Of a stretch of DNA of 64,000 bases, positions 19,940 through 47,952 are shown piece by piece. How positions within the stretch are numbered: position 1 is the stretch's first letter; the number at the start of each line of letters is the position of its first letter. A program made the translations under genes and the position numbers. Source of the stretch: an uncultured Eudoraea sp. (GTDB lineage Bacteria; Bacteroidota; Bacteroidia; Flavobacteriales; Flavobacteriaceae). Under the pieces are notes generated by a model. That model saw nothing but the letters and a program-made list of their open reading frames with translations, had not been told where the DNA came from and did not search any database. The stretch spans positions 124,001 through 188,000 of the forward strand of contig NZ_CANLGX010000006.1 in the NCBI RefSeq assembly GCF_947490415.1. The letters are read 5' to 3'.

Positions 19940-19982
19940 TAAAAATACCTCTGGGATTACATGGAAACAATGATATATGTCA
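19940..19982 (-). promoter_or_regulatory. Crp/Fnr-type box and -7 element ahead of uspA-1
   Basis: TGATATATGTCA (19971-19982) fits TGAY-N4-RTCA. On the minus strand TATTTTTA (19940-19947), one base off TAnnTTTG, begins 29.5 bp from the box centre. The leader to the ATG at 19914 would be about 19 nt. This is a class II-like activator layout shared with four other sites in the window. Confidence 0.6.
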
Positions 19983-20071
19983 GGTTTTTAAATCCTGAAT
20001 AATTATTGACAAGTACTTATTTACTTTAGGCAGGAACTATATTGGGGCTGAATTAGTACTGAAGTGCTGAA

Positions 20072-20767
20072 CTAAAATCCTTCAGCAAGTTCGCTTAATT
20101 TCTTTTCATCCAAAATTCCAAGTTTCTTCCCGGAACTCTTTAGCAAGCCCTTCTTTTTAAATTCCGAAATAATTCGAATGCAGGATTCCGTGGCAGTGCC
20201 AACAACATTAGCTATATCCTCCCTTGAAAGGGTAAGAACTAAATATCCGTCCGCGTCTTCACCATAGTTAGATTTAAGATAAAGGAATGCTTCTGCGATA
20301 CGTTGTTTTACAGTTTTTTGAGAAATATTTACAATCACATCATCTGCTTCTCTTAAGTCATGTGACATGAGGCGAAGGACTTCAAATGTAAAACCAGGAT
20401 TCTTGTGTAAGGTATTCACAATTACTTCTTTGGGAATAAAGCAAAGTTCCATATCGTTAACAGCGACTGCACTTAAATTTGAAGTCTCCTCTGCAATCAC
20501 AGAACGTTGACCCATAACTTCACCTTTTGTGGCTAATTTCACTATTTGATCTTTTCCGTTAGAGCTTAGTTTAGAAAGCTTTGAAACCCCATCCCGAACA
20601 CAAAACACCCCGTTTAGTTTTTCTCCTTCTTCGAAAATAGCTTCGCCTTTTCTAACGCTTTTGGAAATCTTTGAATCAGAAACCTGTTTTAATTCATCCT
20701 TACTCATAGCCCGTAAGGAATTAAATTGACGTACTATACAATTCTCGCACCTGTTTTCAGAGCCCAT
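20072..20767 (-). CDS. Crp/Fnr family transcriptional regulator
   Basis: 231 residues: a cyclic-nucleotide-binding-type sensor barrel (about 25-130), a dimerisation helix (about 130-160) and a winged helix at the C-terminus. The recognition helix TATESCIRIISEF has E194 and R198 four residues apart, as in Crp and Fnr, which read TGA/TCA half-sites. Cysteines are at 7, 10, 56, 109 and 196. The N-terminal C7-x2-C10 lacks the third close Cys of E. coli FNR, so a classical 4Fe-4S sensor is uncertain. It is divergent from ccoI, with a box in the gap. It probably controls the respiratory genes here. Confidence 0.85.
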   Translation of the reverse strand: MGSENRCENCIVRQFNSLRAMSKDELKQVSDSKISKSVRKGEAIFEEGEKLNGVFCVRDGVSKLSKLSSNGKDQIVKLATKGEVMGQRSVIAEETSNLSAVAVNDMELCFIPKEVIVNTLHKNPGFTFEVLRLMSHDLREADDVIVNISQKTVKQRIAEAFLYLKSNYGEDADGYLVLTLSREDIANVVGTATESCIRIISEFKKKGLLKSSGKKLGILDEKKLSELAEGF

Positions 20768-20810
20768 GGATTTTTGTTTACGCTATTGAACTTCAAAATT
20801 ATCGAAAAGG

Positions 20811-20853
20811 TGACAAATATCATATATATTTTAAGTAAATTACTACAATTTCG
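20811..20853 (+). promoter_or_regulatory. Crp/Fnr-type box between the regulator and ccoI
   Basis: TGACAAATATCA (20811-20822) fits TGAY-N4-RTCA. At the shared 29.5-bp spacing the plus strand reads CAATTTCG (20846-20853), two bases off TAnnTTTG. An overlapping TACAATTT begins 2 bp earlier. The box could also affect the divergent regulator gene, whose start is at 20767. Confidence 0.5.
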
Positions 20854-20882
20854 CATTCAGGTAGTAAGCAAATGTTATTAAT

Positions 20883-23252
20883 ATGAGTAAATGTTACCAC
20901 TGTGGTGATAACTGCAACATCACGGCGATAGTATTTGACGATAAGAATTTCTGTTGTAACGGATGTAAAACAGTCTATGAGATTTTTCAGTCTAATGATC
21001 TGACCTATTACTATGATCTTCAATCAGGCGCGGGTACTACTCCATTAGCCATTGAAGGAAAATACGATTTTCTCACTTCCAATACCATTGCACAACGATT
21101 AATTGAATTTGATGATGGAACTGTTCAAATTGTTAATCTGTTTATTCCAGGTATACATTGCAGTTCGTGTATTTGGGTGTTGGAGAATTTAAAAAAATTA
21201 CATCCCGGAATTACGAATTCACAGGTAGACTTCCCAAAAAAAACAGTTAGAGTTACTTTTAAAGCGGAACTGGTTACATTAAAAGAACTGGTTATATTAT
21301 TAGCAAAAATTGGTTATGAACCCTATATCTCCCTTGATGATTATGACAAGGGTAAGAGTAAAACAGACAGAAGTATATTATATAAACTTGGTGTTGCCGG
21401 TTTTGCTTTTGGGAATATTATGTTTTTATCTTTTCCGGAGTATTTTGAGGTGGGGGAATTTTGGCTTGATCAGTACAAAGGTTTATTCAGATGGTTGATG
21501 TTTGCTTTTTCACTCCCTGTTGTATTTTATGCAGGTAGTGATTATCTCATCTCTGCTTACAAAGGATTGCGTTCCGGACTTTTAAATATTGATGTGCCAA
21601 TTGCCCTGGGTGTTTTGGTGCTTTTTACTCGCAGTAGTTTCGAAATATTCTTTGACTTGGGTTCGGGCTTCTTTGACAGTCTTACGGGTTTAATTTTCTT
21701 CTTATTGGTTGGGAGATTCTTTCAACAAAAAACATATTCATTCCTTTCTTTTGAACGCGACTACAAGTCGTATTTCCCTATTGCAGTTACCAGATTAAGC
21801 AAAAAAAAGAAAGAGGAAACAGTTCAGGTATATGATATTAAAAGAGGCGACAGGTTACTAATAAGGAATAAGGAACTAATTCCGGTAGATGGAATCCTTA
21901 TAAACGGGAAGGCCCAAATAGATTATAGCTTTGTAACCGGAGAATCAGAGCCTGTCCAAAAAATTTCCGGTGATAAAGTTTTTGCCGGTGGCAGACAGTG
22001 TTATGGCGCAATTGAAATAGAAACTTTAAAAAGTGTTTCTCAGAGCTATCTCACGCAATTATGGGGTAATTCGGTTTTCCAAAAAGACAAGACAACTGCT
22101 TTTCAAACTTTAACAGACAGCATAGGAAAACGCTTTACAATAGCTGTATTGGCTATTGCCATAATTGCAGCATCTTTTTGGATGTATCAGGACAGCAGTA
22201 AGGTATTTAATGTTTTTACAGCTGTACTTATCATTGCCTGTCCGTGCGCTATTGCCCTTGCAGCTCCGTTTACCCTGGGCAATATGTTACGGATTTTCGG
22301 ACGTAAAAAATTCTATCTGAAGGACAGTAGTGTAATAGAGCAGTTGGCTCAAATAGATACTGCAATATTTGATAAAACCGGTACAATAACAACAACGCAA
22401 TCTAGTTCAATTTCCTATGAAGGCATGGAGCTTTCTGTTGAGGAGGAATCCTTGCTAAAAAATACCCTGAGGGCATCCAACCATCCGCTGAGCAGATCAC
22501 TATATGCATTGTTAAAAGAACACGATATAGAAACCCTTGATGAGTATAGGGAATATACAGGGAAAGGAGTACAAGGGGTTAAGGACAAGAGCGACGTTAA
22601 AGTTGGTTCCGCAGATTTTGTAGGGCATCAACAACAAAGTGATTATAACAGCACCTCCGTTCATGTAAGCGCAAATGATGCCTATAAGGGGTGTTTTGTT
22701 TTTAATAATAATTACAGGGAAGGAGTTTCGGAAGTTTTTAAAGAAATGGGGCGCTATATGGATTTAGCCGTAATATCGGGCGATAATTCAGGAGAAAAGA
22801 CCAGGCTGGAAAAGCTTTTACCAAAATTGACCCCTTTATATTTTAATCAAAAACCAACGGATAAGTTGGAGTTTATAAGCGAGTTACAGGCTAATGACAA
22901 AAAGGTCCTAATGGTGGGTGATGGTCTAAATGATGCAGGTGCTCTGGCACAGAGTAATGTGGGTCTTGCAATTTCTGAAAACATAAACGTTTTCTCCCCC
23001 GCCTGTGATGGAATTCTTGATGCTACAAAATTTAAATATCTTAACAATTACATTCTGGCCTCTAAAAAGGCCATAAAAATTATTAAATTGTGTTTTATTC
23101 TCTCATTGATGTATAATGTGGTTGGGCTTTATTTTGCTGTGACAGGACAGTTAGAACCCGTAATTGCAGCAATCTTAATGCCATTGAGTTCAATTAGCAT
23201 TGTGGCTTTTGCTACACTTGCAACCAATGTAATAGGAAAGAAGTTAAATTAA
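20883..23252 (+). CDS. ccoI: Cation-transporting P-type ATPase CcoI (copper supply to cbb3 oxidase)
   Basis: 789 residues. The N-terminus is a Cys-rich metal-binding segment (CYHCGDNC, then CCNGC). A heavy-metal-associated domain follows with C93-S-S-C96. About eight transmembrane helices surround the ion-path motif C453-P-C455. Phosphorylation is at D497 in DKTGT and the hinge motif is GDGLNDAGA. CcoI-type ATPases move copper to the outside for assembly of cbb3 oxidase, unlike CopA, which exports excess copper. Position directly ahead of ccoS and ccoNO supports this assignment. Confidence 0.92.
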   Translation: MSKCYHCGDNCNITAIVFDDKNFCCNGCKTVYEIFQSNDLTYYYDLQSGAGTTPLAIEGKYDFLTSNTIAQRLIEFDDGTVQIVNLFIPGIHCSSCIWVLENLKKLHPGITNSQVDFPKKTVRVTFKAELVTLKELVILLAKIGYEPYISLDDYDKGKSKTDRSILYKLGVAGFAFGNIMFLSFPEYFEVGEFWLDQYKGLFRWLMFAFSLPVVFYAGSDYLISAYKGLRSGLLNIDVPIALGVLVLFTRSSFEIFFDLGSGFFDSLTGLIFFLLVGRFFQQKTYSFLSFERDYKSYFPIAVTRLSKKKKEETVQVYDIKRGDRLLIRNKELIPVDGILINGKAQIDYSFVTGESEPVQKISGDKVFAGGRQCYGAIEIETLKSVSQSYLTQLWGNSVFQKDKTTAFQTLTDSIGKRFTIAVLAIAIIAASFWMYQDSSKVFNVFTAVLIIACPCAIALAAPFTLGNMLRIFGRKKFYLKDSSVIEQLAQIDTAIFDKTGTITTTQSSSISYEGMELSVEEESLLKNTLRASNHPLSRSLYALLKEHDIETLDEYREYTGKGVQGVKDKSDVKVGSADFVGHQQQSDYNSTSVHVSANDAYKGCFVFNNNYREGVSEVFKEMGRYMDLAVISGDNSGEKTRLEKLLPKLTPLYFNQKPTDKLEFISELQANDKKVLMVGDGLNDAGALAQSNVGLAISENINVFSPACDGILDATKFKYLNNYILASKKAIKIIKLCFILSLMYNVVGLYFAVTGQLEPVIAAILMPLSSISIVAFATLATNVIGKKLN

Positions 23253-23262: not shown

Positions 23263-23305
23263 TGACATATGTCATTTTTTGAAATTGTCCACAAATGTAG
23301 TTTTA
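23263..23305 (+). promoter_or_regulatory. Crp/Fnr-type box and -7 element ahead of ccoS-ccoNOQP
   Basis: TGACATATGTCA (23263-23274) is a perfect palindrome and the best-formed box of the window. TAGTTTTA (23298-23305), one base off TAnnTTTG, begins 29.5 bp from its centre. The leader to the ccoS ATG at 23325 would be about 14 nt. It gives the structural cco genes a promoter separate from ccoI. Confidence 0.65.
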
Positions 23306-23324: not shown

Positions 23325-23540
23325 ATGAGTGTCATTTATTTATTGCTTACAATTAGTATTGTAGTAGCACTGGTTTTCTTTGCTGCTTTTATCATTTCTG
23401 TTCGGAGCGGGCAGTATGATGACTCGTATACTCCCTCAGTCAGAATGTTATTTGAAGATGAAGTTGTAAAAAACACAACTATAGAACCTACTACTAAAAT
23501 CAAAAAATCAAACCAACTAAATAAAAAGCAAAATTTGTAA
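23325..23540 (+). CDS. ccoS: cbb3 oxidase maturation protein CcoS
   Basis: 71 residues. One N-terminal transmembrane helix (about 3-26) is followed by the family motif SVRSGQYDD and a short cytoplasmic tail ending in Lys/Asn-rich sequence. CcoS is needed for cofactor insertion into CcoN in studied bacteria. It is separated from ccoNO by 2 bp, so it is likely translated from the same message. Confidence 0.9.
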
Positions 23541-23542
23541 TT

Positions 23543-25744
23543 ATGGAAGTACAACAGTTCTATTACGACAACAAGATCGTAAAAAATTTCCTCTATGCCA
23601 CCTTGTTTTGGGGAATCATTGGTATGCTCGTAGGATTACTACTTGCATTAATGTTTCTATTCCCTAATATAACAGATGGAATATCATTTCTAAGTTTCGG
23701 ACGACTTCGCCCATTGCACACCAATGCTGTTATCTTTGCATTCGTAGGGAACGCTATCTTTGCCGGGGTTTATTACTCTACCCAGCGTTTACTCAAAGCC
23801 CGTATGTTTAGTGACTTCCTAAGTAAGTTTAACTTCTGGGGGTGGCAAGCTATAATAGTAGCGGCAGCAATCACGCTTCCTCTTGGATATAGTACTTCTA
23901 AAGAATATGCTGAGTTGGAGTGGCCAATTGATATTGCAATTGCGCTTGTATGGGTCGCATTTGGATGGAACCTGATTGGAACAATGGTTAAAAGAAGACA
24001 ACGTCACCTTTATGTGGCTATTTGGTTCTATTTGGCCACATTCGTAACAGTAGCTGTTCTTCATATCTTTAATAGTTTGGAATTACCGGTTAGCGCTTTA
24101 AAAAGTTATTCGGTATATGCAGGAGTTCAGGATGCTTTGGTTCAATGGTGGTACGGTCATAACGCTGTGGCTTTCTTCCTTACCACACCTTTTTTAGGAC
24201 TAATGTATTATTTTGTTCCTAAAGCGGCCAACAGGCCTGTATACTCCTATAGACTTTCCATAGTCCATTTCTGGTCATTGATTTTTATTTACATCTGGGC
24301 CGGACCTCACCATTTACTCTATTCGGCCTTACCCGATTGGGCACAAAATTTAGGTGTAGCATTTTCAGTTATGCTTATTGCTCCTTCCTGGGGTGGTATG
24401 ATAAATGGGTTACTGACCCTTAGAGGAGCCTGGGATAAGGTACGTACAGACCCAACCCTTAAATTTATGGTGGTTGCAATTACAGGTTATGGGATGGCGA
24501 CTTTTGAAGGTCCCATGTTATCCCTGAAAAATGTAAATGCCATAGCCCATTTTAGTGATTGGATTATTGCACATGTCCATGTAGGTGCCCTTGCCTGGAA
24601 TGGTTTTCTGGCCTTTGGAATGATATACTGGATGGTGCCCAAAATGTTTAAAACCAGACTGCATTCTATCCCTATGGCTAATTTCCACTTTTGGATTGGT
24701 ACTTTAGGAATCATATTATATGCCTTGCCCATGTATGTCGCCGGCTTTACTCAGGCTTTGATGTGGAAAGAATTTAATCCGGATGGCTCCCTTGTTTACG
24801 GGAACTTCTTAGAGACGGTAAATGAAATTATGCCAATGTACTGGATGCGGGCGATTGGTGGCAGCCTGTACATTGTTGGGTTTATTGTAATGTTGTACAA
24901 CATAGTAGTTACGGTTCGCTCGGGTAGCAAGGTGGAAGATGAACTTGCAGAAGCGGCAGCCCTAACCAGGGTATCTAAAAAAAGAACCGCAGGAGAAACG
25001 TATCATACCTGGCTGGAACGCAAACCTATTAAATTGACAATATTTGCTACAATAGCCATTCTTATTGGGGGGATTGTCCAGATAGTCCCAACTATTCTGG
25101 TAAAATCAAATATACCAACTATTACAAGTGTAAAACCATATACTCCTCTGGAATTGGAGGGAAGAGATCTTTATATACGTGAAGGTTGTGTAGGTTGTCA
25201 TTCTCAGATGATTCGTCCTTTCAGAAGCGAGGTGGAACGATATGGAGAATACGCCAAAGCAGGAGAGTTTGTTTATGATCACCCATTCCTTTGGGGGAGT
25301 AAACGTACAGGGCCTGATTTATTGCGAATTGGGGGTAAATATTCCGATAGTTGGCATCTTAACCATATGTATGACCCCCAAAGCACCTCTTCAGGTTCCA
25401 TAATGCCGGCATATCAGTGGTTAGTTCTCAATGAACACGACAGAAGTGATATACAGGGAAAAATGGAAGCAATGGTAAGTCTCGGTGTACCTTATACCGA
25501 AGAGGAAATTGCGAATGCAGAGGCTTCTATGGAAGAACAGTCCATACAAATAGAAGAAAACCTTTATGCTGATCCCGATTTTGTAAAATCCTATGAAGCA
25601 GATAAAAAATACGCTGCGGATAACGGATTGGACTTTGTAGAAATGCGTGATCGTGAAATAGTTTCGCTAATCGCTTACTTACAGCGGCTAGGTACGGATA
25701 TAAAAGTTAAGGAAACCGACGAATTATTGTCAGAAAACAAGTAG
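23543..25744 (+). CDS. ccoNO: Fused cbb3 cytochrome oxidase subunits I and II (CcoN-CcoO)
   Basis: 733 residues. Residues 1 to about 480 are CcoN with twelve or so helices. Haem and copper ligands are seen in [35 protein letters not shown] and [10 protein letters not shown]. Residues about 500-730 are CcoO, with one membrane helix and one haem c site at C549-x2-C552-H553 (CVGCHSQM). In proteobacteria these are two genes, while the fusion is usual in Bacteroidota. The complex reduces oxygen with high affinity and pumps protons. It is followed after 3 bp by ccoQ. Confidence 0.95.
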
Positions 25745-32234: not shown

Positions 32235-32738
32235 ATGATTTATAAACACATCCCTGACGTACTGGTAAAAGCCAAATTTTCTGATTGTAAAAAATTCCGC
32301 TATCAGCTTACAATAGAAAATGCGGTAAAAACAAGCGGCAACACCCTTTGTGTTATCATGCAAAATCCCAGCGTTGCCAATTCAAAATTTGCGGACAAAT
32401 CTGTTCAATTTCTGGAAAAACTCATTTTTGAAAAAGAAGTTGAGCCATTTAGAAACGTAAAAACTATTATAGTAGTTAATCTGTTTGCCTATATACAAAC
32501 TAAAGATTTTAAAGGAGCTTCATCTAAAATCGGGAAAGAGAATGACAGTTTTATAAGGCAGGCTATAGAAGATTCCGATATCGTAATAGTTGCCTGGGGC
32601 AAAACCAATTCTTATTCGGAACGCCGGAATGTAATACATGCCATATTACAGGATTATCCCAAAAAAAGACTGCTTAAAACCAGGGTACATCCATCAAGAG
32701 GAACTTATAAAGATTTTATCGAACCTTATTCTTTCTAA
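32235..32738 (+). CDS. DUF1643 family protein
   Basis: 167 residues. The DUF1643 pattern is clear: FRYQLTIEN, a central CVIMQNPSVANSKFADKSVQFLEKL block, IIVVNLFAYIQT and DIVIVAWGK. No function is known. It follows deoD after 18 bp and may be carried on the same transcript. It overlaps the convergent nosY gene by 4 bp at the stop codons. Confidence 0.85.
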   Translation: MIYKHIPDVLVKAKFSDCKKFRYQLTIENAVKTSGNTLCVIMQNPSVANSKFADKSVQFLEKLIFEKEVEPFRNVKTIIVVNLFAYIQTKDFKGASSKIGKENDSFIRQAIEDSDIVIVAWGKTNSYSERRNVIHAILQDYPKKRLLKTRVHPSRGTYKDFIEPYSF

Positions 32739-33523
32739 AAATCCTTTTTGTTTGCTTTTCTAATGAGATTATACAATGGAATAAGTGTCCATAAAATCAA
32801 CATAAAGATTGAAATAAAGAACCCTGATCTCGTTCCGAAAAAAGATTTGAATACAGCCCCCGTATAACCCATAAGGGCAGATATATCTAATTTCAAAAGT
32901 ATTAGTGTTCTGGAAAGATCTACAGGGTTAAGCATTGTGGCCACCAAAGAATATTTGTCTAAAGGATAGTCCTCAAATATTATAAGTGATAATAGAAACA
33001 ACCCATCATAAATTACCGCAAAAAACAACCATAATAATACAGCATAACCAAATCCTTTAATCTTATTTTCATTGGACAATGCAATGTTAAACGACAAAGC
33101 GGTGAAAATTAACGTCAGAAATGCTCCAACGACCAATAATAGTGAAAAATCCCAAATGGCATTGCTCCTAAAAAGTCCGTATGCAATAAAGGGAATCCCA
33201 AGTCCCATTACCAAACTTAAGGTCAAAGAACCCGCTACGCCTAAATACTGCCCTGTAAAAATAGAAGAACGCTTAATGGGCAGCGCCAGTAAAAGTTCAG
33301 TGAATTCTTTGGAATTATAGAAGTACATTACGCCAAAAATTGTGCCTATTAGCGGAACCAGGACAATGATAACATTCATAAGCGTAATAACTGCTTTGGA
33401 AACATCATTGTTTAGAAATAAAAGAACAAAACCAAGGGCAAGATAAAACAGAAAATACACATAGCTCCATCTGCTTCGCATTAGGTCGTAAAAGCTGTAT
33501 TTCAGTATTTTAAACATTCTCAA
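32735..33523 (-). CDS. nosY: ABC transporter permease NosY
   Basis: 262 residues with six predicted helices, starting MFKILKYSFYDLMRSRWSY. The second half of the first loop carries FTELLLALPIKRSSIFTGQYLG, a typical coupling region of NosY/ABC-2 permeases. NosFY, with NosD, forms the complex that supports copper-sulfide centre assembly in nitrous oxide reductase. Its start overlaps nosF by 14 bp, and it is the last gene of the leftward nos cluster. Met3 is an alternative start. Confidence 0.88.
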   Translation of the reverse strand: MRMFKILKYSFYDLMRSRWSYVYFLFYLALGFVLLFLNNDVSKAVITLMNVIIVLVPLIGTIFGVMYFYNSKEFTELLLALPIKRSSIFTGQYLGVAGSLTLSLVMGLGIPFIAYGLFRSNAIWDFSLLLVVGAFLTLIFTALSFNIALSNENKIKGFGYAVLLWLFFAVIYDGLFLLSLIIFEDYPLDKYSLVATMLNPVDLSRTLILLKLDISALMGYTGAVFKSFFGTRSGFFISIFMLILWTLIPLYNLIRKANKKDF

Positions 33524-34220
33524 AATTTGTTGCTATTGTAGCTATAGCGTGGTCAAAATTATTTTCACCTGTCCTTTCTTTGAGCTCCTTGATAGTTCCT
33601 TTAAAATAGATTTTACCTTCCAGCAGATATATTATTGTATCAGCCATTTCTTCAACAAACTGCATGATATGAGTTGTAATCAAAATAGTTTTGCCCTGCT
33701 GCTTTTCCTTTTGAATAAGCTTTTTTAAACTAATTAAGGCAGCCGGATCCAAACCAGTGGTAGGTTCATCCAAAATAATTAGCGGACTGTTAAACATAAA
33801 AGCCAAAAGTATGTTTACCTTTTGCCTGGTGCCGCCAGACAAGGAAGCCAGTTTATTATTTAAATATGGAGCTAATCCAAAGCTTGAAATAAGAACATCA
33901 TCCTGACTTGGCTTTTGCCTTAAATCCTTGATCATTGCTATTAGTTCAAATACCCTTAAATTCCCCGGAAAATTGGCTATCTGGGGCAGGTAGTTGATTT
34001 CTTGTCTGTATTTCCAATTTTTTTTGACAGCCTTACCTTCGACTTCAATTTCACCTGAAGTAGGAATTACCATTCCTAAAATACATTTTATTAGAGTGGT
34101 TTTACCAGAACCATTAGGGCCAAGCACGGCATAAATACCAGGACTTTTAATAGAAAGGTTTGTTCCGCTCAGTACCTGATTCCTACCAAATTTTTTGTGG
34201 AGGTCTTCAATTTTTATCAT
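33510..34220 (-). CDS. nosF: ABC transporter ATP-binding protein NosF
   Basis: 236 residues. Walker A is GPNGSGKTT near residue 36, the signature is LSGGTRQKVNI, Walker B is LIILDEPTTGLD, and the switch His is in TTHIMQFVEEM. It is the ATPase partner of NosY and the periplasmic NosD in maturation of the CuZ cluster of NosZ. Its start overlaps nosD by 4 bp. Confidence 0.9.
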   Translation of the reverse strand: MIKIEDLHKKFGRNQVLSGTNLSIKSPGIYAVLGPNGSGKTTLIKCILGMVIPTSGEIEVEGKAVKKNWKYRQEINYLPQIANFPGNLRVFELIAMIKDLRQKPSQDDVLISSFGLAPYLNNKLASLSGGTRQKVNILLAFMFNSPLIILDEPTTGLDPAALISLKKLIQKEKQQGKTILITTHIMQFVEEMADTIIYLLEGKIYFKGTIKELKERTGENNFDHAIATIATNFENV

Positions 34221-35449
34221 TTTATTCTTTTCATGAGGGGGCTATTATCCATTAGATTATCCGGTGTAAAAATGGGCGATACTTTTTCTGAAAAATCTAT
34301 GATATCCATAAATAAACTGCGCAGTAGTACAATAGTTTCAGGGGTTCTGTTCACAATATATGAAAATAGTTTAACAGGTCTGTAAGGTACATCTCCTACC
34401 CCATCCTTATTTAAATCATAACCAGCGTAATTACTCCAATAATTCTCCTTAAAGACATTGTCGTTAATTTTACTGTTATAAGATAGATCAAAGGAATTAT
34501 TTAGAAAGTTGTTATTTACAAATGAATTCGCATAACATGCCCCTTTTACTTTCAAAGCCCAACCATTACTAATAAATTCATTGTTGTAATAATTTATTCT
34601 ATTGGATCCTTCTACATTGATACCGATAGTATTATTGGTGAAAATATTGCCTGTAATTTCTGCATCATTGATCTCTTTTAATAACAAACCAAAAGAAGCT
34701 GTACCCCAGTTTTTTGAAAAAGTATTGTTGCGCATTGTAATTTTCTTTGAAAACATTACGGCCACACCAGCGCCATTGTTCTCGAAGGTATTATTTGTGT
34801 ACACATCATCGTTTGAAAACATAAAATGAAGGCCATACCTCAGATTATTTGTGCTTAGGTTGTTATTGATGGTAATGTTATCAGAAAACTCCAGGTAAAT
34901 ACCATCGCGTACACCTTGTACAATATTTTGGTCTACCTGAACATTGTGGCAATACCATAATTGAATACCATTACCAGAATTATACTCATCCACTGCATCG
35001 CCATTAATCTTGTTGTTATACACTTTACCGTTATTCGATTTTTCAAGATATATACCGAAAAAGAGCTTTTCCAATACTACGTTCTGTATCAGGAAGTTTT
35101 CACTTTTAACTACCCGGATAGCGGCGTAATCTGTAGTGTAACTTGTGCCGACGTTAATAATGTATAGTCCATCAATAGTCACATTATCGGAAACAACGCG
35201 TATGATTTCGCCACGGTCTTCGCCGTCTACTACGGGGTAGTTTTCACCCTTTAAGGTTAAGGGTTTGTCTACAAGGATATTGAACTCTTTGTAGGTGCCT
35301 TTTTTGATAAGAACAGTATCAAATTTTGAAGACTTTGAAACAGCATCTTTAATAGACCTAAACTCACAGTCTGAGCATACTACCAAGGTCTTTGCTTTTA
35401 AACTAAAGATACTTAGAAACAATATTCCTAATAGAAAATATTTACCCAT
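34217..35449 (-). CDS. nosD: Nitrous oxide reductase maturation protein NosD
   Basis: About 410 residues from the ATG at 35447-35449, which opens a signal peptide (MGKYFLLGILFLSIFSLKA). An upstream start at 35503 would overlap the cupin gene and hide the signal. The chain is a right-handed parallel beta-helix of NosD/CASH repeats with many Asn-rich turns (NNTFENN, NNTFSKN, NNEFISNG). Periplasmic NosD works with NosFY in CuZ assembly. The C-terminal DKDGVGDVPYRP block is typical of NosD. Confidence 0.9.
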   Translation of the reverse strand: MGKYFLLGILFLSIFSLKAKTLVVCSDCEFRSIKDAVSKSSKFDTVLIKKGTYKEFNILVDKPLTLKGENYPVVDGEDRGEIIRVVSDNVTIDGLYIINVGTSYTTDYAAIRVVKSENFLIQNVVLEKLFFGIYLEKSNNGKVYNNKINGDAVDEYNSGNGIQLWYCHNVQVDQNIVQGVRDGIYLEFSDNITINNNLSTNNLRYGLHFMFSNDDVYTNNTFENNGAGVAVMFSKKITMRNNTFSKNWGTASFGLLLKEINDAEITGNIFTNNTIGINVEGSNRINYYNNEFISNGWALKVKGACYANSFVNNNFLNNSFDLSYNSKINDNVFKENYWSNYAGYDLNKDGVGDVPYRPVKLFSYIVNRTPETIVLLRSLFMDIIDFSEKVSPIFTPDNLMDNSPLMKRIK

Positions 35450-35457
35450 AATCAGTA

Positions 35458-35754
35458 TTACCTTATTATAAGGAATTTTGAATTCTCGAGTGCTTTTACC
35501 CAATGTTTTTCATCTTTAGGAAAGGAGAAATGTTGATGTTTGGAAAGATGGTACTCTTTCTGATTGATATAAAAAATAATAGCGCCCTCCAAGACAATTA
35601 ATTGTACATCTTTTGGTGACACATGTTCAGGAAAGATAGCGTTTTTTTCAAGGCTAATACTTAATATTTTTAAGTTTTCAGTATTTACCAGCTTATGAAT
35701 CTGAAGCTTATTATACTCCTGTGAATTAATTCCATTATTAACCGTATACATCAT
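35458..35754 (-). CDS. Small cupin-like protein in the nos cluster
   Basis: 98 residues. The single cupin-type barrel is read from NAIFPEHVSPKDVQLIVLEGAI, which holds the first His, and HQHFSFPKDEKHWVKAL with three further His. There is no signal peptide, so it is likely cytoplasmic. It lies 1 bp after nosL and 8 bp before nosD. Cupins of this size often bind a metal or a small molecule and may act as sensors. Its role in nitrous oxide metabolism is unknown. Confidence 0.7.
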   Translation of the reverse strand: MMYTVNNGINSQEYNKLQIHKLVNTENLKILSISLEKNAIFPEHVSPKDVQLIVLEGAIIFYINQKEYHLSKHQHFSFPKDEKHWVKALENSKFLIIR

Positions 35755-35755
35755 T

Positions 35756-36190
35756 TTAATTATTCATGTGTTTCAAAAGTTCATTCCAGGAATAGAGCTC
35801 TCCTCCATTTTCTTCTTTTGCCACGGTTGCAGCTTCCATATTGTCAAATGCGGTTAAGAATTCCCCCATGGGACTGGGTATATTTTCACTTATCAGATAA
35901 GTTGCCTCCTGTGCGGCTATCAGTTCTCCTGGTTGCTCATAGTAATTGCAGAAATAAAGTGCAACTTCAACGGTATCTATGTCTTTCATATGATTAAGCA
36001 TACATTCCACCGCATCAAATTTAAATGCCTTCCCTTTTTTAGTTACTATTTGAGCTGCATGTTGCTTATCTACAATGGTCATTGAACAAAAATGACATCC
36101 ATCAGAACCATAAATAATTGGTTTTGGACTTACCTCACATGAAGCGAATATGAATAGGACTAAACTTAAAAAAATGAATTTATTTATCAT
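35756..36190 (-). CDS. nosL: Copper-binding lipoprotein NosL
   Basis: 144 residues. The lipoprotein signal ends in FASC (Cys18). The Cu(I) site is CHFCSMTI, a CxxCxM motif as in known NosL proteins, followed by KAFKFDAVECMLNHM. NosL delivers copper to apo-NosZ in characterised systems. Its start overlaps the end of the NosB-like gene by 11 bp. Confidence 0.9.
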   Translation of the reverse strand: MINKFIFLSLVLFIFASCEVSPKPIIYGSDGCHFCSMTIVDKQHAAQIVTKKGKAFKFDAVECMLNHMKDIDTVEVALYFCNYYEQPGELIAAQEATYLISENIPSPMGEFLTAFDNMEAATVAKEENGGELYSWNELLKHMNN

Positions 36191-36842
36191 TTGGTTTTAC
36201 TTTAATCGGTCTTACCGAATTGGCACTTCTTTCGGGTTTCCATGCTTTTTTACCCACAAAAAATGCCATTACAGTCATCATCATACCCACAAACATGAAC
36301 CACGCACCTGTCGATGGCAAAGAGGTTACGTCAAAATTAAGCATTTTTACATGCCCAAAAAGTGGTGGTTTGTAGCTCACAGGAGTGCCGTCTGCGTTGG
36401 TGAGTTTCATTATAGCATTAGGATCTAAATTGGTGCCGTAATCTACCATCCATTCGTTAAAATCATACATACCCAGTACTCCTAAGATACTCATGAGTAC
36501 GAACCATCCCATAAACCATTTATAGCTAACTTTTTCAAAAAATCCCAACAGGCCTATCAATACACCTAAGGCTACCATTCCTCCAATGACCCATGGAAAG
36601 GTACTAAACTCCCACATATCCTCAGGTTTTGGTAGTGTACGCATGCCAATGTAGTGGTTAAGACCGTCAATGTTCTGAATATCAAATTCATCAACTCCCT
36701 TAATACCATCAATATATATATTCATTCCCAAAGGTTCCGGATATTGAGGTGCTCCGAGCATTATGTTCCAGAGCGGGAAAACATACAATCCCAAAAGAAA
36801 CAAAGGACCAATGATCATCAGGATACTTGCTTTTTTCATCAT
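36180..36842 (-). CDS. Membrane protein of the nos cluster, NosB-like by position and topology
   Basis: 220 residues with about four or five helices (7-28, 84-101, 108-125, 182-200) and a large loop (about 30-80) outside the membrane. No domain is recognised. In clade II nos clusters a membrane protein, NosB, usually sits right after nosZ, and this gene has that place and topology. The name is therefore an inference. It overlaps nosL by 11 bp and is separated from nosZ by a terminator-like hairpin. Confidence 0.6.
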   Translation of the reverse strand: MMKKASILMIIGPLFLLGLYVFPLWNIMLGAPQYPEPLGMNIYIDGIKGVDEFDIQNIDGLNHYIGMRTLPKPEDMWEFSTFPWVIGGMVALGVLIGLLGFFEKVSYKWFMGWFVLMSILGVLGMYDFNEWMVDYGTNLDPNAIMKLTNADGTPVSYKPPLFGHVKMLNFDVTSLPSTGAWFMFVGMMMTVMAFFVGKKAWKPERSANSVRPIKVKPNDK

Positions 36843-36850
36843 TTCTGCTT

Positions 36851-36871
36851 TTTGATTGTTTACAAATCAAA
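36851..36871. promoter_or_regulatory. Inverted repeat ahead of the NosB-like gene
   Basis: TTTGATT (36851-36857) and AATCAAA (36865-36871) form a 7-bp inverted repeat with a 7-nt spacer, 8 bp upstream of the ATG. The half-site distance differs from the TGAY-N4-RTCA boxes. It could be an operator or a hairpin near the start codon of the distal nos genes. Confidence 0.4.
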
Positions 36872-36901
36872 CGTGGCTTTGGAAGGATACTTTAATTTGT
36901 G

Positions 36902-36937
36902 AAAAAAGCGGGCAGGTCTTAGACACAGCCCGCTTTT
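36902..36937 (-). terminator. Terminator or attenuator downstream of nosZ
   Basis: On the minus strand AAAAGCGGGC (36928-36937) pairs perfectly with GCCCGCTTTT (36904-36913), and two further T follow (36902-36903). The 14-nt loop contains an additional GTCT/AGAC pair. It lies 33 bp after the nosZ stop and should end most transcripts, leaving the distal maturation genes at lower expression. Confidence 0.75.
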
Positions 36938-36970
36938 ATATGTGAAATAAAATTATTTACCAGAGTACTT

Positions 36971-38926
36971 TCATTCGCCTAAAGACCAGGAAAGGTCAAT
37001 ATTTGAATTAGCAGGAGATACTCTAACATAACCTTGCATTTCCTGGTGTAAAGCAGAACAAAAATCGGTACAGTAGAATGGCCATACCCCAACCTTTTTA
37101 GGTTCCCATAACGAGGTCTTGGTTTGCCCTGGCATTACTAGAATTTCGGAAGTCCCCTGACCAATTATGGAGAAACCATGTGGTACGTCAAAATCTTGCT
37201 CGTGGTTGGTGATATGGAAATAAACCTTATCCCCTACTTTGATACCCTCAATATTGTCTGGAGTAAAATGACTTCTGATAGTAGACATATAAATATGTAC
37301 TTCATTCCCATTGCGTTCTACACGTGCATCATCAACACCCATAGTGGCATATTTATGCTTATTTTCATCCAATCGATAGATCTTTTTCGAATTTGATGCT
37401 AACAACTCGGCAGGGCAACCAGCAGCATAATGCGGTTCACCGTGGGTTGGGAAATCATAAATCAATTCCATTTTTTCCCCTGAAATATCATAAATCTGAG
37501 CAGAGTGCTCCATTTCAGGACCAGTAGGAAGATACCTGTCTTTGGTAATCTTGTTCATAGCAACAACATACTTCCCGAAAGGCTTTCTTGAATTTCCACC
37601 CGGAATCATCAAATGTCCTACAGAATAGTAAGTCGGTTTTCTATCGACAACCTCCCAGGTTCCCACTTTCCATTTTACCACTTCTGAGGAAATAAAGAAG
37701 GTAGTATAAGCATTCCCCTTGTCATCGAATTCGGTATGAAGTGGGCCTAAACCTCCACTTTTTACTGTACCTGCTAAGACCTCCTCAAATTTGAGAATAG
37801 GAATACCATAAGCCTCTCCATCAAATTTTTCTGCTTCGATTGCGGCCAACATTTTATCAAACGAATGTACCGTAATGTCTGCAGACAGTTTTCCGCTACC
37901 AATAATATATTCTCCCGTTGGATCTACATCACAGCCGTGTGGTGATTTAGGTGTGGGCAGGAAGTACAAAGCTCCGGGTACTTTGGTTGGATCTACCGTA
38001 ACTACCTCTTTTATCATGGTAGAAGTCCCTGTATGGGTTTCCTCGTCATAGACATTGTGCGCATAGTTGGCAGGCATTTTAGTCCCGCCACCATTTTTAA
38101 CATACTCCTCTATTTTCTTCCAGTTTACAGCAGCGATAAAATCCTTATCATTTTGCGAAGCCATAACTTCTAATAGAGAATTGGCCTCTTCGGTGTTATA
38201 CGTTGAAAAGAAGAACCATCCATGAGATTTTCCACGACCGGGATGCGAAAGGTCATAATTGAAACCTGGCATCAATATCTGGAATTCCAGATTTAATCGG
38301 CCGTTATCAGGCGCAACACTAATAAAAGATAAAGCGCCTTTAAAATTTCCCTTGTATTCATTAATGGGCATATCGCGCTGTGGCACGGGCACTGAGAAGC
38401 GTGTGCCAGCTACGACATACTCCGTGTTTTCCGTAATAAATGACGAACTGTGGTTACCTGCACTGTTTGGAACCTCAATAATCTCTTCGGTCTCAAAAGT
38501 ACTCAAACTTACCCTTGCTATACGGGGAGTATTGTTCCCATTTACAAAAATCCATCGACCATCCAATTCACCATTAGTTTGTGAAATATCAGGGTGATGT
38601 AAATCATCCCAAGGAACGAATCCAAAAGAAGTGTTCAGCATCGGTTTGGTTTCTTCCGAATAACCATATCCCGAAGTCGGGAATTGTGAGAATACGGGGA
38701 TTTCCTTGAACATTCTCCCTGAGGGAAGTCCATATACCGTAAGGTTTCCGCTATAACCTCCAGAAAGGAAAGCGTAGAATTCGTCTTGTTCACCAGGAGC
38801 TACATACACTTTTTCAGCAGCGCTTGATGATAAAGCCCCATTTGATTTCTGAGATTGATTGTTGCAGCTGCTTAAGGTAATTCCTAACCCAAAGAGGACA
38901 CAAATTAAATAGCTTAAATTTTTCAT
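36971..38926 (-). CDS. nosZ: Nitrous-oxide reductase, Sec-dependent clade II type
   Basis: 651 residues. The N-terminus is a Sec lipoprotein signal (LSSC, Cys21), not a Tat signal, which marks clade II. A seven-bladed propeller supplies CuZ histidines in DLHHPDIS, HPGRGKSHGW, SPHGCDVDPTG, GPLHTEFDD and GEPHYAAGC. The C-terminal cupredoxin domain has the CuA ligands C-x3-C-x3-H-x2-M in YCTDFCSALHQEMQGY and an upstream His in VPHGFS. It reduces nitrous oxide to dinitrogen in the periplasm. Confidence 0.97.
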   Translation of the reverse strand: MKNLSYLICVLFGLGITLSSCNNQSQKSNGALSSSAAEKVYVAPGEQDEFYAFLSGGYSGNLTVYGLPSGRMFKEIPVFSQFPTSGYGYSEETKPMLNTSFGFVPWDDLHHPDISQTNGELDGRWIFVNGNNTPRIARVSLSTFETEEIIEVPNSAGNHSSSFITENTEYVVAGTRFSVPVPQRDMPINEYKGNFKGALSFISVAPDNGRLNLEFQILMPGFNYDLSHPGRGKSHGWFFFSTYNTEEANSLLEVMASQNDKDFIAAVNWKKIEEYVKNGGGTKMPANYAHNVYDEETHTGTSTMIKEVVTVDPTKVPGALYFLPTPKSPHGCDVDPTGEYIIGSGKLSADITVHSFDKMLAAIEAEKFDGEAYGIPILKFEEVLAGTVKSGGLGPLHTEFDDKGNAYTTFFISSEVVKWKVGTWEVVDRKPTYYSVGHLMIPGGNSRKPFGKYVVAMNKITKDRYLPTGPEMEHSAQIYDISGEKMELIYDFPTHGEPHYAAGCPAELLASNSKKIYRLDENKHKYATMGVDDARVERNGNEVHIYMSTIRSHFTPDNIEGIKVGDKVYFHITNHEQDFDVPHGFSIIGQGTSEILVMPGQTKTSLWEPKKVGVWPFYCTDFCSALHQEMQGYVRVSPANSNIDLSWSLGE

Positions 38927-38959
38927 TGTTTTATTTTTAGTTTTAATTGATTAATGTTT

Positions 38960-39541
38960 TTATTCTTCCGGTGGTAACATTACCTTGTCTACCACATGAA
39001 CAATTCCGTTACCTGCCTTAACACTGCCTATAATTTTAGCACCTCCAACAAAAACATCATCCCCTTCAACAACAATCATTACATTTTGATCATTGGCCTG
39101 CCCTAATTTTTTAAACTTCTTTAGAAAATCTTTAGAATAATTTCCAGGCGTAACATGATATTTTAAGATATTGGCCAACGCCTCTTTATTTTCCGGCTTT
39201 AACAAGTTGTCAACCGTTCCTTCAGGTAGTGCAGCAAAGGCTTCATTAGTAGGTGCAAATACCATTAACGGACCAGCATTTACCAAAACATTTTCAAGGT
39301 CAGCAGCTTGTACAGCCGCAACCAGCGTTGTATGATCCGGAGAACCAATAGCAATCTGTAGTACATTAGGAGTTGATCCGTCATCTTCAATAAAGGCCTG
39401 GCCACGTTCTTTATCTTCTTCAGTTGTTGGTGTTGTTGAAGAAGTTGTTCCTTCTATTTTAGCTTCATTTTTACAACCGACAAATAAAATCAGCATAAAA
39501 AATGAACCAACAAGTAGTCTTAATTTAGTAATTGTTTTCAT
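38960..39541 (-). CDS. Fasciclin-domain lipoprotein of the nos operon
   Basis: 193 residues. The signal ends in a LFVGC lipobox (Cys23). A Thr/Ser linker (about 30-45) leads to one fasciclin (FAS1) domain with the H1 box GPLMVFAPTNEAFAALP and the H2-like IIGSVKAGNGIVHVVDKVMLPP. FAS1 domains mediate adhesion or protein contact. Here the gene is placed between the cytochrome c and nosZ genes, so a scaffold role for the electron-transfer partners is possible, but this is inference. Confidence 0.88.
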   Translation of the reverse strand: MKTITKLRLLVGSFFMLILFVGCKNEAKIEGTTSSTTPTTEEDKERGQAFIEDDGSTPNVLQIAIGSPDHTTLVAAVQAADLENVLVNAGPLMVFAPTNEAFAALPEGTVDNLLKPENKEALANILKYHVTPGNYSKDFLKKFKKLGQANDQNVMIVVEGDDVFVGGAKIIGSVKAGNGIVHVVDKVMLPPEE

Positions 39542-39552
39542 ATGATTGTTTG

Positions 39553-40059
39553 TTATAAAGTTCTAAAATACTCCAGCACAGCCCTTGCTTGTTCTTCAGT
39601 AAGACCTTGATTCGCCATTGGGGATCCATTGAACTCTAGCAACAAATCTTTCGCCAATGGATCTTCTTTTACCATCTGATCAGGATTAAGAATCATGTTC
39701 ATAACCCATTCCGGTGTACGTCTTTCAAGGATGCCGTTAGGGGCCGGGCCAATAAATTTTTTGCCTATTCTATGGCATGCCAGGCACATTTGGTCATACA
39801 CCTCTTTTCCAGTTACAGCCATTGCCTGGTCTATTTCCGGATTTAAGGTTAGTGAAGTCACTGGGCCAATACCCTTGTTGTCCAGATCAACGCGCTCCGA
39901 TGCTTTTGTAGCAGAAGTTTCGGGAGGTGTGACGGGCTGTTCAGTGTCTGTTTTTTGCCTGGTAACACTAAAACCCTCTTTTTTCTTTTCTTCTTTTCCC
40001 CCACAGCTTATCATTAAAAGTGCAAAAAGGAATACGGTAATTTCATTAAGTTTTTTCAT
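39553..40059 (-). CDS. Mono-haem cytochrome c lipoprotein, first gene of the nos operon
   Basis: 168 residues. Lipoprotein signal ending in LMISC (Cys19), a charged Lys/Glu and Pro linker to about residue 75, then a class I cytochrome c domain with C92-x2-C95-H96 and a likely axial Met in GSPMANQGLT. It is the first gene after the box at 40116. It is a good candidate for the electron donor to NosZ. Gaps to the fasciclin gene and from there to nosZ are 11 and 33 bp. Confidence 0.9.
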   Translation of the reverse strand: MKKLNEITVFLFALLMISCGGKEEKKKEGFSVTRQKTDTEQPVTPPETSATKASERVDLDNKGIGPVTSLTLNPEIDQAMAVTGKEVYDQMCLACHRIGKKFIGPAPNGILERRTPEWVMNMILNPDQMVKEDPLAKDLLLEFNGSPMANQGLTEEQARAVLEYFRTL

Positions 40060-40084
40060 TCTATGATAGTTGTCAATTAATTTT

Positions 40085-40127
40085 CAAAAATAAAAGGAGA
40101 AAGAAAGAAAAAACATGATATTAATCA
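40085..40127 (-). promoter_or_regulatory. Crp/Fnr-type box and -7 element of the nos operon
   Basis: TGATATTAATCA (40116-40127) fits TGAY-N4-RTCA, with flanking A and T extending the symmetry. On the minus strand TATTTTTG (40085-40092) is an exact TAnnTTTG and begins 29.5 bp from the box centre. The leader to the cytochrome c ATG at 40059 would be about 19 nt. The box lies between divergent promoters and might also affect the rrf2 gene. Confidence 0.7.
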
Positions 40128-45378: not shown

Positions 45379-45420
45379 AATTGGTTAGCACTTACAAGGT
45401 TATATGGAAATTTAAGGTAA

Positions 45421-45467: not shown

Positions 45468-45615
45468 TAAAGAATAACTATTAATCCATAGATAGGGACA
45501 GACAAGTTTACGATTTCCAGAAAACCATGAAAGAATTTGATCCATTAGTTCTGCTTCTCAGACAATTTTAGGGTGCACTAAGAAGTCTCGTTGGTTTGAT
45601 GTATTTATAAATAAA

Positions 45616-45645
45616 TAAAGGGGAATCGTTTTGGATTCCCCTTTA
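45616..45645 (-). terminator. Intrinsic terminator of the hemN-uspA-2 transcript
   Basis: TAAAGGGGAATC (45616-45627) and GATTCCCCTTTA (45634-45645) form a perfect 12-bp stem with a 6-nt loop. On the minus strand the stem is followed by a T-rich stretch (TTTATTTATAA). It lies 28 bp after the uspA-2 stop codon. Confidence 0.75.
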
Positions 45646-45673
45646 TCATATCAATTAATTAATCAACCTAAAA

Positions 45674-46498
45674 CTATATTTTGAATGTGATTACAGGAAT
45701 TTTGGAATGATTGGTAATATCCTCTCCAATACTACCCATAAAGAAATGTGATAGCCCTTTTCTGCCATGAGTAGGGATTCCAATTACATCGGCATGGATA
45801 CTTTCGCTAAAATTTAAAACACCCTTCTCAACGCTATAATCATTATATATATTGACTTCCTTACCAGCACCAGCTTTTTGCAAATACTTGTTTACTTTTT
45901 CATAAGCATCCTGAGTACTTAAAAAATTGTCTCCCGGAGTATTTATATAGACCAAATGCAGTTTAGCTGATAATTTATCTGCAAATTCCTTGGCTTTTCG
46001 AAATGCAAGAAGGCTTTCGTCTTTAAAAGCACAGGCAAATACAAAGTTTTCAGCCTTGAAATCTTCCAATTCATCTTTAATCACCAGAACCGGAATTTCA
46101 GAATTTCTCACTACTTTTTCGGCATTGGAACCTACAAATATTTCTTTAAGTCCATCACTGCCATGAGAGCCCATGATAATCATATCGGCCCCATGTTTTT
46201 CAGCAATATCATTTACTTCACTAAATACTTTGAAATGCTTTATAATAGGAGTTACTTTTTTTACACCCTTCAGGTAGGGTTTGTCTAAAAACTCGGTAAT
46301 TCGTTTTTCAGCCATTTTAATGAGAAACACGGTTTGTTCAGGATGAAATCCTTCCGAAGATGAAATCATTGCTTCATTTAATTCCAGCATATGAAGTGCA
46401 ATAATTTCAGCCCCGTGCTTTTTAGATAGGGAGGCCGCAACTTTTAAAGCGTTTTCGGACTGCTCGGAGAAATCAACAGGTACTATGATTGTTTTCAT
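45674..46498 (-). CDS. Universal stress protein with two Usp domains
   Basis: 274 residues. The first domain starts IIVPVDFSEQSENALKVA and holds DMIIMGSHGSDGLKEIFVGSNAEKVV. The second ends with VIGIPTHGRKGLSHFFMGSIGEDI. Both carry the G-x2-G-x9-G-S/T ATP-binding pattern, better kept than in the copy at 19 kb. It follows hemN after 31 bp and shares its promoter and Crp/Fnr-type box. A role in survival under low oxygen is likely. Confidence 0.92.
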   Translation of the reverse strand: MKTIIVPVDFSEQSENALKVAASLSKKHGAEIIALHMLELNEAMISSSEGFHPEQTVFLIKMAEKRITEFLDKPYLKGVKKVTPIIKHFKVFSEVNDIAEKHGADMIIMGSHGSDGLKEIFVGSNAEKVVRNSEIPVLVIKDELEDFKAENFVFACAFKDESLLAFRKAKEFADKLSAKLHLVYINTPGDNFLSTQDAYEKVNKYLQKAGAGKEVNIYNDYSVEKGVLNFSESIHADVIGIPTHGRKGLSHFFMGSIGEDITNHSKIPVITFKI

Positions 46499-46529
46499 TG
46501 TCTTAGATTTTAAGGTAAATTAAACACTT

Positions 46530-47891
46530 TTAAATAGTCATGGAAAACAGCCTGGTTTCAGGGGCTTTCCTATGTAATAACACATCAAATGCCATACATA
46601 TGTTTCTTATAAAGGGTCTTCCCTTTTCAGTAACCCTAACTTTATTAACGCTAATTTCAACTAATTCGTCTTTTTCCATTTCCCTTAGCCTTGTCAAGAT
46701 CTGCTCTAAAAGTTCGGAATTTTCACTTTCCTGATCCCAACTTGACTCAAATCTACACATTAAATTCAATATATGCCTTCTTATAAATTGATCTTCATCG
46801 GTTAAAATATGGCCTCTGTAAATAGGGATAATATTATTTCCTACCAGATGTTCATATTCCTCCAGGCTTTTAACATTCTGTGCAAAGCTATACCAGCTGT
46901 CGCCAATACTAGAAACTCCAAGACCAATCATCAGTTGCGTTTTGGAGGCAGTATAACCCATGAAATTTCTATGAAGTTTTCCAGAGACCATAGCAATGTA
47001 AAGGGAATCACTTTCCAGAGCAAAATGATCCATTCCTATTTCGTGGTAACCCACCTCAGCTAATAAAGCTTTTCCACTCTCATACTGATTACGCTTTTCT
47101 TCTGCGGTAGGCAGATCTTTATCATTGTATCCTCTTTGACCGTTCCCCTTAAGCCAGGGTACATGGGCATAACTATAAAATGCCAAACGATCAGGCATTA
47201 ACAATTTGGTTTTTAAAATAGTATCCTTAACATGTTCCAGCGTTTGATATGGGAGTCCAAAAATTAAATCGTGGCCCACAGAAGTAAATCCAATTTCACG
47301 AGACCATTCCGTAACATCTCTTACCTTTTCAAAAGACTGAATACGGTGAATTGCTTTTTGTACGGTATCGTTATAATCTTGCACACCAAAACTCACCCTT
47401 CTAAACCCCAGATCAAACAACATTTGTAAATGAGTCTTGGTAGTATTATTGGGGTGCCCTTCAAAACTAAATTCATAATTTTCTGCTTTTTCTGCATGCC
47501 TGAATATTCCGTTAATTAATACTTTAAGGTGGTCGGGAGAAAAGAAAGTCGGGGTACCTCCTCCCAAATGTAATTCCTTAATTTTGGGCTTGGTATCAAA
47601 AAGTTCGCAATATAAACTCCACTCCTTTAATAAGGTGCTTATATAAGGTTTTTCTACCTCATGTCTTTTAGTAATACGCTTATGACACCCGCAAAACGTG
47701 CACATCTGTTCACAAAATGGCAAATGAATATAAAGACTGATACCCTCGGTGGCATTGCTTTCATCAAAACTTCTCTTTATCGTAGCTTTCCAGGCTTTTC
47801 CCGAAAATGTATCCATATTCCAATAGGGAACTGTAGGATAACTGGTATAACGAGGACCCGGGATATTGTATTTGCGTACTAAGTTGCCCAT
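46530..47891 (-). CDS. hemN: Oxygen-independent coproporphyrinogen III dehydrogenase
   Basis: About 453 residues from the ATG at 47889-47891 (MGNLVRKYNIPGPRYTSYPT). A start at 47933 would lie upstream of the predicted promoter. The radical SAM motif is C-x3-C-x2-C-x-C (FCEQMCTFCGCHK), the four-Cys form that marks HemN rather than HemW. Other blocks are LHLGGGTPTFFSP, RVSFGVQDYN and GHDLIFGLPYQT. It oxidises coproporphyrinogen III without oxygen during haem synthesis, matching the cytochrome demand of low-oxygen growth. Confidence 0.95.
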   Translation of the reverse strand: MGNLVRKYNIPGPRYTSYPTVPYWNMDTFSGKAWKATIKRSFDESNATEGISLYIHLPFCEQMCTFCGCHKRITKRHEVEKPYISTLLKEWSLYCELFDTKPKIKELHLGGGTPTFFSPDHLKVLINGIFRHAEKAENYEFSFEGHPNNTTKTHLQMLFDLGFRRVSFGVQDYNDTVQKAIHRIQSFEKVRDVTEWSREIGFTSVGHDLIFGLPYQTLEHVKDTILKTKLLMPDRLAFYSYAHVPWLKGNGQRGYNDKDLPTAEEKRNQYESGKALLAEVGYHEIGMDHFALESDSLYIAMVSGKLHRNFMGYTASKTQLMIGLGVSSIGDSWYSFAQNVKSLEEYEHLVGNNIIPIYRGHILTDEDQFIRRHILNLMCRFESSWDQESENSELLEQILTRLREMEKDELVEISVNKVRVTEKGRPFIRNICMAFDVLLHRKAPETRLFSMTI

Positions 47892-47909
47892 CAGAAAAAG
47901 TGTTTTCAA

Positions 47910-47952
47910 CAAATCTATTTGTTTTAAGTCCAATATAATATGACATAAATCA
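47910..47952 (-). promoter_or_regulatory. Crp/Fnr-type box and -7 element of hemN-uspA-2
   Basis: TGACATAAATCA (47941-47952) fits TGAY-N4-RTCA. On the minus strand TAGATTTG (47910-47917) is an exact TAnnTTTG and begins 29.5 bp from the box centre. The leader to the hemN ATG at 47891 would be about 13 nt, which supports that start. Confidence 0.7.

Follow-up and report, generated by a model that had tools for sequence, protein, structure and literature searches.

In a 64,000-nucleotide stretch of DNA from an uncultured Eudoraea sp. (Flavobacteriaceae; contig NZ_CANLGX010000006.1, positions 124,001 to 188,000), hereafter called the window, the promoters of uspA-1, ccoI, ccoS-ccoNO, the nos operon and hemN-uspA-2 (gene assignments below) carry a Crp/Fnr-type box, TGAY-N4-RTCA, at one exact distance from a -7 element of the type TAnnTTTG. 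On the strength of the sequence comparisons described here we consider it highly probable that these boxes are class II operators for an FNR-type activator working at low oxygen, the regulator most likely being the protein encoded at 20072-20767 of the window. The low-oxygen respiration genes of marine flavobacteria are marked by a box at a single promoter distance that is kept across dozens of species.

All five boxes were found where the initial annotation of the window had placed them, at 19971, 20811, 23263, 40116 and 47941, and in all five promoters the box centre lies 29.5 bp from the first base of the -7 element, i.e. the gap between the two is 23 bp. On the minus strand, the -7 element is an exact TAnnTTTG at hemN (TAGATTTG, 47910..47917; box TGATTTATGTCA, 47941..47952) and at the nos operon (TATTTTTG, 40085..40092; box TGATTAATATCA, 40116..40127), and has one mismatch at uspA-1 (TATTTTTA, 19940..19947; box TGACATATATCA, 19971..19982). 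On the plus strand it has one mismatch at ccoS (TAGTTTTA, 23298..23305; box TGACATATGTCA, 23263..23274) and two at ccoI, where it is weak (CAATTTCG, 20846..20853); the ccoI box (20811..20822) is common to ccoI on the plus strand and the regulator gene on the minus strand. The annotation's account of this spacing, with two exact, two one-mismatch and one weaker element, was confirmed and had understated the pattern. TGAY-N4-RTCA occurs eight times in the window, and the remaining three boxes (36093, 38595 and 40064) have no -7 element with at most one mismatch at gap 23 on either strand. The box at 40064, the second at nos, was taken as a chance occurrence because only the window's own locus has one among 30 nos loci. 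First-order Markov simulations of the window, 300 in all, produced a box with a -7 element (at most one mismatch) at gap 23 with a mean of 0.05 and a maximum of two cases, compared with four observed.

The spacing is conserved at each promoter in relatives. Footprints of the usp and ccoI promoters and of the regulator side were taken from the best 80 of 282 regulator loci, those of hemN from the best 30 loci (own included) of 58 genomes matching HemN, and those of nos from the best 30 loci (own included) of 98 genomes matching the nos cytochrome. The box was present in 80/80 loci at usp and in 80/80 at ccoI, with a -7 element (at most one mismatch) at gap 23 in 79/80 and 73/80, respectively, while box and gap 23 were kept together in 74 of the 76 ccoS-ccoN loci. 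At hemN the box was found in 28/30 loci and gap 23 in 27/30 (26/29 without the own genome); at nos, box and gap 23 were each found in 29/30 (gap 23 in 28/29 without the own genome). Any other gap gave at most eight matches in these five sets, the maximum being gap 17 at usp. Information content was calculated from rows with a box and a passing -7 element (usp 79, ccoI 80, ccoS 73, hemN 27, nos 29, regulator 46). In distinct rows it was 1.54-1.69 bits for the box and 1.51-1.90 bits for the -7 element, values that are partly imposed by this choice of rows, which nearly all loci passed. The spacer bits are free of this effect, and positions 7-23 held 0.16-0.43 bits per position over the five promoters. 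Low spacer information together with a constant gap of 23 indicates a spacer of fixed length and largely free sequence.

The initial annotation had proposed that a fixed rule of this kind would predict sites throughout the genome, and a genome scan agreed. In the own genome (3.89 Mb), exact boxes and exact TAnnTTTG elements formed 40 pairs over the 31 spacings from gap 8 to gap 38, 22 of them at gap 23 (binomial P 1e-22 against 1/31) and three at the next commonest gap. The exact gap-23 pattern was found 22 times, compared with 0 for a reversed-pattern control. This control preserves composition but loses the box's dinucleotides, so that the spacing histogram is the stronger test. With up to two mismatches the counts were 302 and 139, which makes lone two-mismatch matches untrustworthy. 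Only 1/22 exact gap-23 sites lay inside an open reading frame of at least 100 amino acids, versus 6/12 off-gap sites examined (of 18). Box and -7 element are both short and A+T-rich, as one would expect of chance matches in A+T-rich intergenic DNA, yet the Markov simulations, the spacing histogram and the footprints in 30-80 loci per promoter refute this explanation, to which we assign a negligible probability. The pattern is thus not as frequent in shuffled DNA as in the genome, an outcome that the annotation had named as speaking against the rule. The sites are spread over several contigs, and the regulon is therefore not 'local', as it had been called.

The same gap-23 peak was seen in five of six relatives (those fully listed among 30), with 25/37 pairs in G063, 15/25 in G064, 8/17 in G065, 22/32 in G068 and 7/22 in G088. 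In a phylum sample of 296 genomes, 124 of which had a match, exact gap-23 matches were compared with control matches. There were 263 versus 5 in 29 Flavobacteriaceae genomes excluding the own, 24 versus 0 in six genomes of other families of the order, 112 versus 7 in 37 genomes of other orders of the class, and 87 versus 12 in 222 genomes of other classes, with the outlier G351 set apart. Outside the class, where the mean is 0.39 exact matches per genome, most sampled genomes show the rule weakly or not at all. The outlier G351 (L271), a genome from a different class of the phylum, gave 28 exact gap-23 sites versus 0 in the control, and its regulator homolog is 39% identical with all four cysteines kept.

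The start-site maps of F. psychrophilum (PMC9723704) and F. johnsoniae (PMC6847099) place TAnnTTTG at -12 to -5. Because the first T of TAnnTTTG is at -12, the additional 29.5 bp put the predicted centre of the activator site at -41.5, the class II position of Crp/Fnr proteins, which bears out the class II-type spacing of the initial annotation. E. coli FNR activates mostly from -41.5, with 19/23 directly activated promoters with known starts having their site at most 4 nt away (PMC3688515). Transcription would then start at 19935 (uspA-1), 20858 (ccoI), 23310 (ccoS), 40080 (nos) and 47905 (hemN), and the predicted leaders of 14-25 nt are near the median of 24 nt in F. psychrophilum. In that species the genes for cbb3 oxidase and heme synthesis go up when oxygen is limiting (PMC9723704). 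In the mechanism that we propose, a regulator dimer, most likely encoded at 20072-20767, would bind TGAY-N4-RTCA centred at -41.5 when oxygen is low, contact the upstream edge of RNA polymerase and aid the sigma-A holoenzyme onto the TAnnTTTG -7 element with its first T at -12. Oxygen would probably be sensed via an iron-sulfur cluster with cysteines 7, 10, 56 and 109 as its ligands.

Abutting the box, spacer positions 1-6 (-35 to -30) form a T-rich block with 1.38-1.57 bits per position, values that are not imposed by the choice of rows. The block reads T, A/T, T/G, T, T/A, T, and all distinct rows from the five promoters have its first T; in a two-class model of 79 sites from the own genome, the two classes have T at this position in 87% and 93%. 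Several boxes are immediately preceded by an A-rich stretch, and both this stretch and the T-rich block are likely polymerase contacts. The suggestion that the activator replaces a -33 element is not supported, because this conserved block lies directly beside the box. F. johnsoniae promoters themselves show hardly any -33 motif, and G at -10 is virtually absent from them (PMC6847099). The -7 elements of hemN and nos keep the sigma-A consensus across loci, and those of uspA-1, ccoS and ccoI have conserved deviations: A at -5 in 98% of 74 distinct rows at usp, C (88%) or G (11%) at -12 at ccoI, and G at -10 in 89% and A at -5 in 97% of 67 distinct rows at ccoS. We infer that these deviations hold basal activity low, so that an activator would be needed.

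The candidate regulator (20072..20767, minus strand; 231 amino acids) is placed in the Crp/Fnr superfamily by its Pfam domains, cNMP_binding and HTH_Crp_2. Its best PDB matches are the Crp/Fnr protein 2gau and FNR-type entries such as 5cvr and 5e44, which we take to be A. fischeri FNR, and Eudoraea records contain versions of it with up to 96% identity. Cys7, Cys10, Cys56 and Cys109 are invariant in 80/80 near relatives and present in 22, 24, 23 and 25, respectively, of a set of 29 farther homologs that includes other paralogues. Cys7, Cys10 and Cys109 align with cysteines of FNR of known structure, presumably corresponding to Cys20, Cys23 and Cys122 of the E. coli cluster cysteines, which we take to be Cys20, 23, 29 and 122. 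With three of the four E. coli-type cysteines aligned and Cys56 invariant instead of the other, a cluster with Cys56 as fourth ligand is likely. The recognition helix keeps Glu194 and Arg198 and has Ile197 where FNR has Ser.

On the regulator side of the shared box, the -7 element lies at gap 23 in 46/80 loci, at gap 9 in 13/80 and at neither in 21/80. In the window it is at gap 9 (TAATTTTG, 20794..20801, minus strand), 14 bp nearer to the box than it is in other genera, which puts the shared box at -27.5, across the regulator promoter, and suggests autorepression of the regulator gene. The 13 gap-9 loci form one clade (support 100/86) that includes the loci closest to the window, which was itself outside the tree; some Eudoraea-labelled records (L116, L181) fall elsewhere in the tree and have neither spacing. 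We infer a single switch between auto-activation and autorepression, the direction and effect of which are likewise conjectural. The repressor-like place of the box at -27.5 would also suit the view that the boxes in general are repressor sites, or serve class I or other regulation, and that the spacing merely reflects a common promoter architecture. This view is very improbable, since the single exact spacing equals the class II place and the conserved defects in the -7 elements of uspA-1, ccoI and ccoS suggest a need for an activator.

The own genome encodes five proteins with a Crp-type helix-turn-helix domain. One of them, here called receiver-CRP (C4:478368-479423, L190:7866-8924; 352 amino acids), combines Response_reg, cNMP_binding and Crp helix-turn-helix domains, lies beside a PAS histidine kinase and has, by eye, the same E..IR recognition-helix residues as the regulator adjacent to ccoI. 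Spacing therefore does not name the regulator, and the boxes, or many of them, might be operated by this response regulator, in which case the rule would describe a two-component regulon or one common to two regulators; we regard this as rather unlikely. Receiver-CRP and the kinase sit in a cluster of usp-like genes, one of which was confirmed as Usp. In 60 genomes scored for receiver-CRP (full-length match <1e-75; 25 positive) and HemN (E <1e-190), TCATT sites were, as predicted beforehand, commoner with receiver-CRP (mean 3.40, n = 25, versus 0.63, n = 35; p 2e-7), and they made up a modestly larger share (0.37 versus 0.24, p 0.011, or p 0.083 when the count was limited to genomes of 2.5-4.5 Mb other than the own). 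Stress-type boxes also cluster at C1:640-782 kb (Fisher p 2.8e-4), where 2 A-type and 21 B-type boxes were counted, compared with 30 and 26 elsewhere (79 sites). However, the other half of the advance prediction, that TCATR sites would be independent of receiver-CRP, failed, as these were up as well (5.80 versus 2.34, p 1.5e-5). At least one TCATR site was present in 41/42 HemN genomes versus 8/18 without HemN, and the TCATR excess in HemN genomes held after subtraction of one hemN site (p 1.4e-4). Two clean motif classes for two regulators found no support, a two-class model being disfavoured by a Bayesian information criterion of -65 on data from stretches chosen for holding sites (73) plus six exact sites elsewhere. 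Moreover, the hemN site is kept in 10/11 genomes without receiver-CRP (17/19 with it), and because of this persistence the adjacent FNR-like protein is the best candidate for the boxes of the window. The initial annotation had named it as the regulator to be tested; it keeps its place as best candidate but not as the sole one. The two regulons may overlap, or genomes with receiver-CRP may simply be more facultative.

The genes behind the boxes of the window support the earlier view that these precede low-oxygen genes. uspA-1 (19072..19914, minus strand) encodes a universal stress protein-like product with only a weak UspE match (18.7 bits, far under the cut-off). The heavy-metal P-type ATPase gene at 20883..23252 (plus strand) is presumably ccoI, and the cbb3 oxidase genes at 23325..25744 (plus strand) are, we assume, ccoS and a fused ccoNO (733 amino acids). 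The nos cluster (32735..40059, minus strand) contains NosZ of the Sec-dependent type (match 933 bits), and its neighbours are taken to be cytochrome c, fasciclin-like and NosL/D/F/Y-like genes. hemN and uspA-2 occupy 45674..47891 (minus strand), HemN matching at 431 bits, over the cut-off, and the Usp matches falling under it. The longest hemN open reading frame begins with a TTG upstream of the predicted transcription start (47891-47933); given that start at 47905, translation probably begins at the ATG at 47891 and not at the TTG.

Across the genome, a Pfam scan covered 37 of the 63 listed proteins behind sites with at most one mismatch, plus three regulator/kinase proteins. Behind sites we found pyruvate:ferredoxin oxidoreductase, a second POR-type oxidoreductase, ferredoxin, a 4Fe-4S dicluster protein, a cytochrome c7-type protein, a Pyr_redox_2 flavoprotein, a rhodanese-lactamase protein, DnaJ, a phosphoenolpyruvate-synthase-type enzyme, thioredoxin, Usp, Hsp20, FtsH, BON and alcohol dehydrogenase. 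Five boxes of the own genome are double-sided, with a passing -7 element at gap 23 on both sides; one such box, at C1:300716 (L192), lies between ferredoxin and 2-oxoacid:ferredoxin oxidoreductase genes. The region C1:640000-782000 is a stress island that holds 23 of the 79 classified gap-23 sites (at most one mismatch), around FtsH, BON, Hsp20, LigD primase and alcohol dehydrogenase.

Several results weigh against a low-oxygen regulon under an FNR-type class II activator. Many predicted targets are stress or other genes and not respiratory ones; non-respiratory proteins behind sites include one with a LigD primase domain, one for capsule synthesis and others that fall in no family. In G086, one of the six relatives tallied, gap 23 was unenriched (1/10). 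In the regulator's own gap-23 promoters the first T of the T-rich block is replaced by G in 97% of 45 distinct rows, and the block is weaker (1.00 bits). As for the regulator, its best NCBIfam model is FNR but the match reaches 108 bits against a curated cut-off of 228, and the third N-terminal FNR cysteine is absent, being Asn in 80/80 near relatives and Ser in 19/29 farther ones. Its predicted fold, with a mean predicted local distance difference test score (pLDDT) of 60.7, is too poor to decide whether the four cysteines lie close together.

In a literature search that covered subscription papers and supplements thinly, we found no description of this promoter rule in Bacteroidota and no study of FNR-type promoter control of Bacteroidota cbb3 oxidase or N2O reductase. 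fnr and crp go unmentioned in the main text of PMC9723704. Crp/Fnr homologs of a Flavobacteriales metagenome-assembled genome have been treated as MalR-like carbon sensors (PMC8510549), and rrf2 and Crp/Fnr genes adjoin nosZ in metagenome scaffolds (PMC6264515). The proposed class II mechanism is a known one and appears new in its combination with the Bacteroidota sigma factor, a reading that conservation supports well. Class II geometry would, this suggests, be compatible with a primary sigma factor that is very different. With the sequence rule a low-oxygen regulon can be predicted throughout a family of marine bacteria, and two candidate regulators are named for it. A more far-reaching picture, which we hold to be possible but somewhat short of an even chance, is that of a Bacteroidota code extending beyond the family and consisting of box, T-rich block, 17 bp and TAnnTTTG. 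It would be read by a separate FNR subfamily with Cys56 as new fourth ligand of its iron-sulfur cluster and shared with the receiver-CRP two-component branch; -7 defects would set promoter strength, and the sign of autoregulation would have been flipped once by a 14-bp move of the -7 element at the shared divergent box.

The -10 element of E. coli also begins near -12. The promoters described here resemble the class II promoters of E. coli FNR in having a Crp/Fnr-type site at -41.5 in front of anaerobic respiration genes (PMC3688515), and differ from them in the Bacteroidota sigma factor and TAnnTTTG. The core TGAY-N4-RTCA is common to these boxes and the FNR site TTGAT-N4-ATCAA, whereas the outer T and A of the latter are not found here, the outer bases being mostly C or A upstream and T downstream. 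In Proteobacteria, FixK, FnrL and Anr control fixNOQP, hemN, nos and usp genes, a similar gene set under an FNR-type regulator, although with another sigma factor and another regulator subfamily than in the window. With Flavobacterium sigma-A promoters, finally, the promoters of the window share the TAnnTTTG -7 element at -12 to -5 (PMC6847099, PMC9723704); unlike these promoters in general, they have in addition a box and T-rich block whose spacing is fixed, and ccoS keeps a G at -10 that is virtually absent in F. johnsoniae (PMC6847099).

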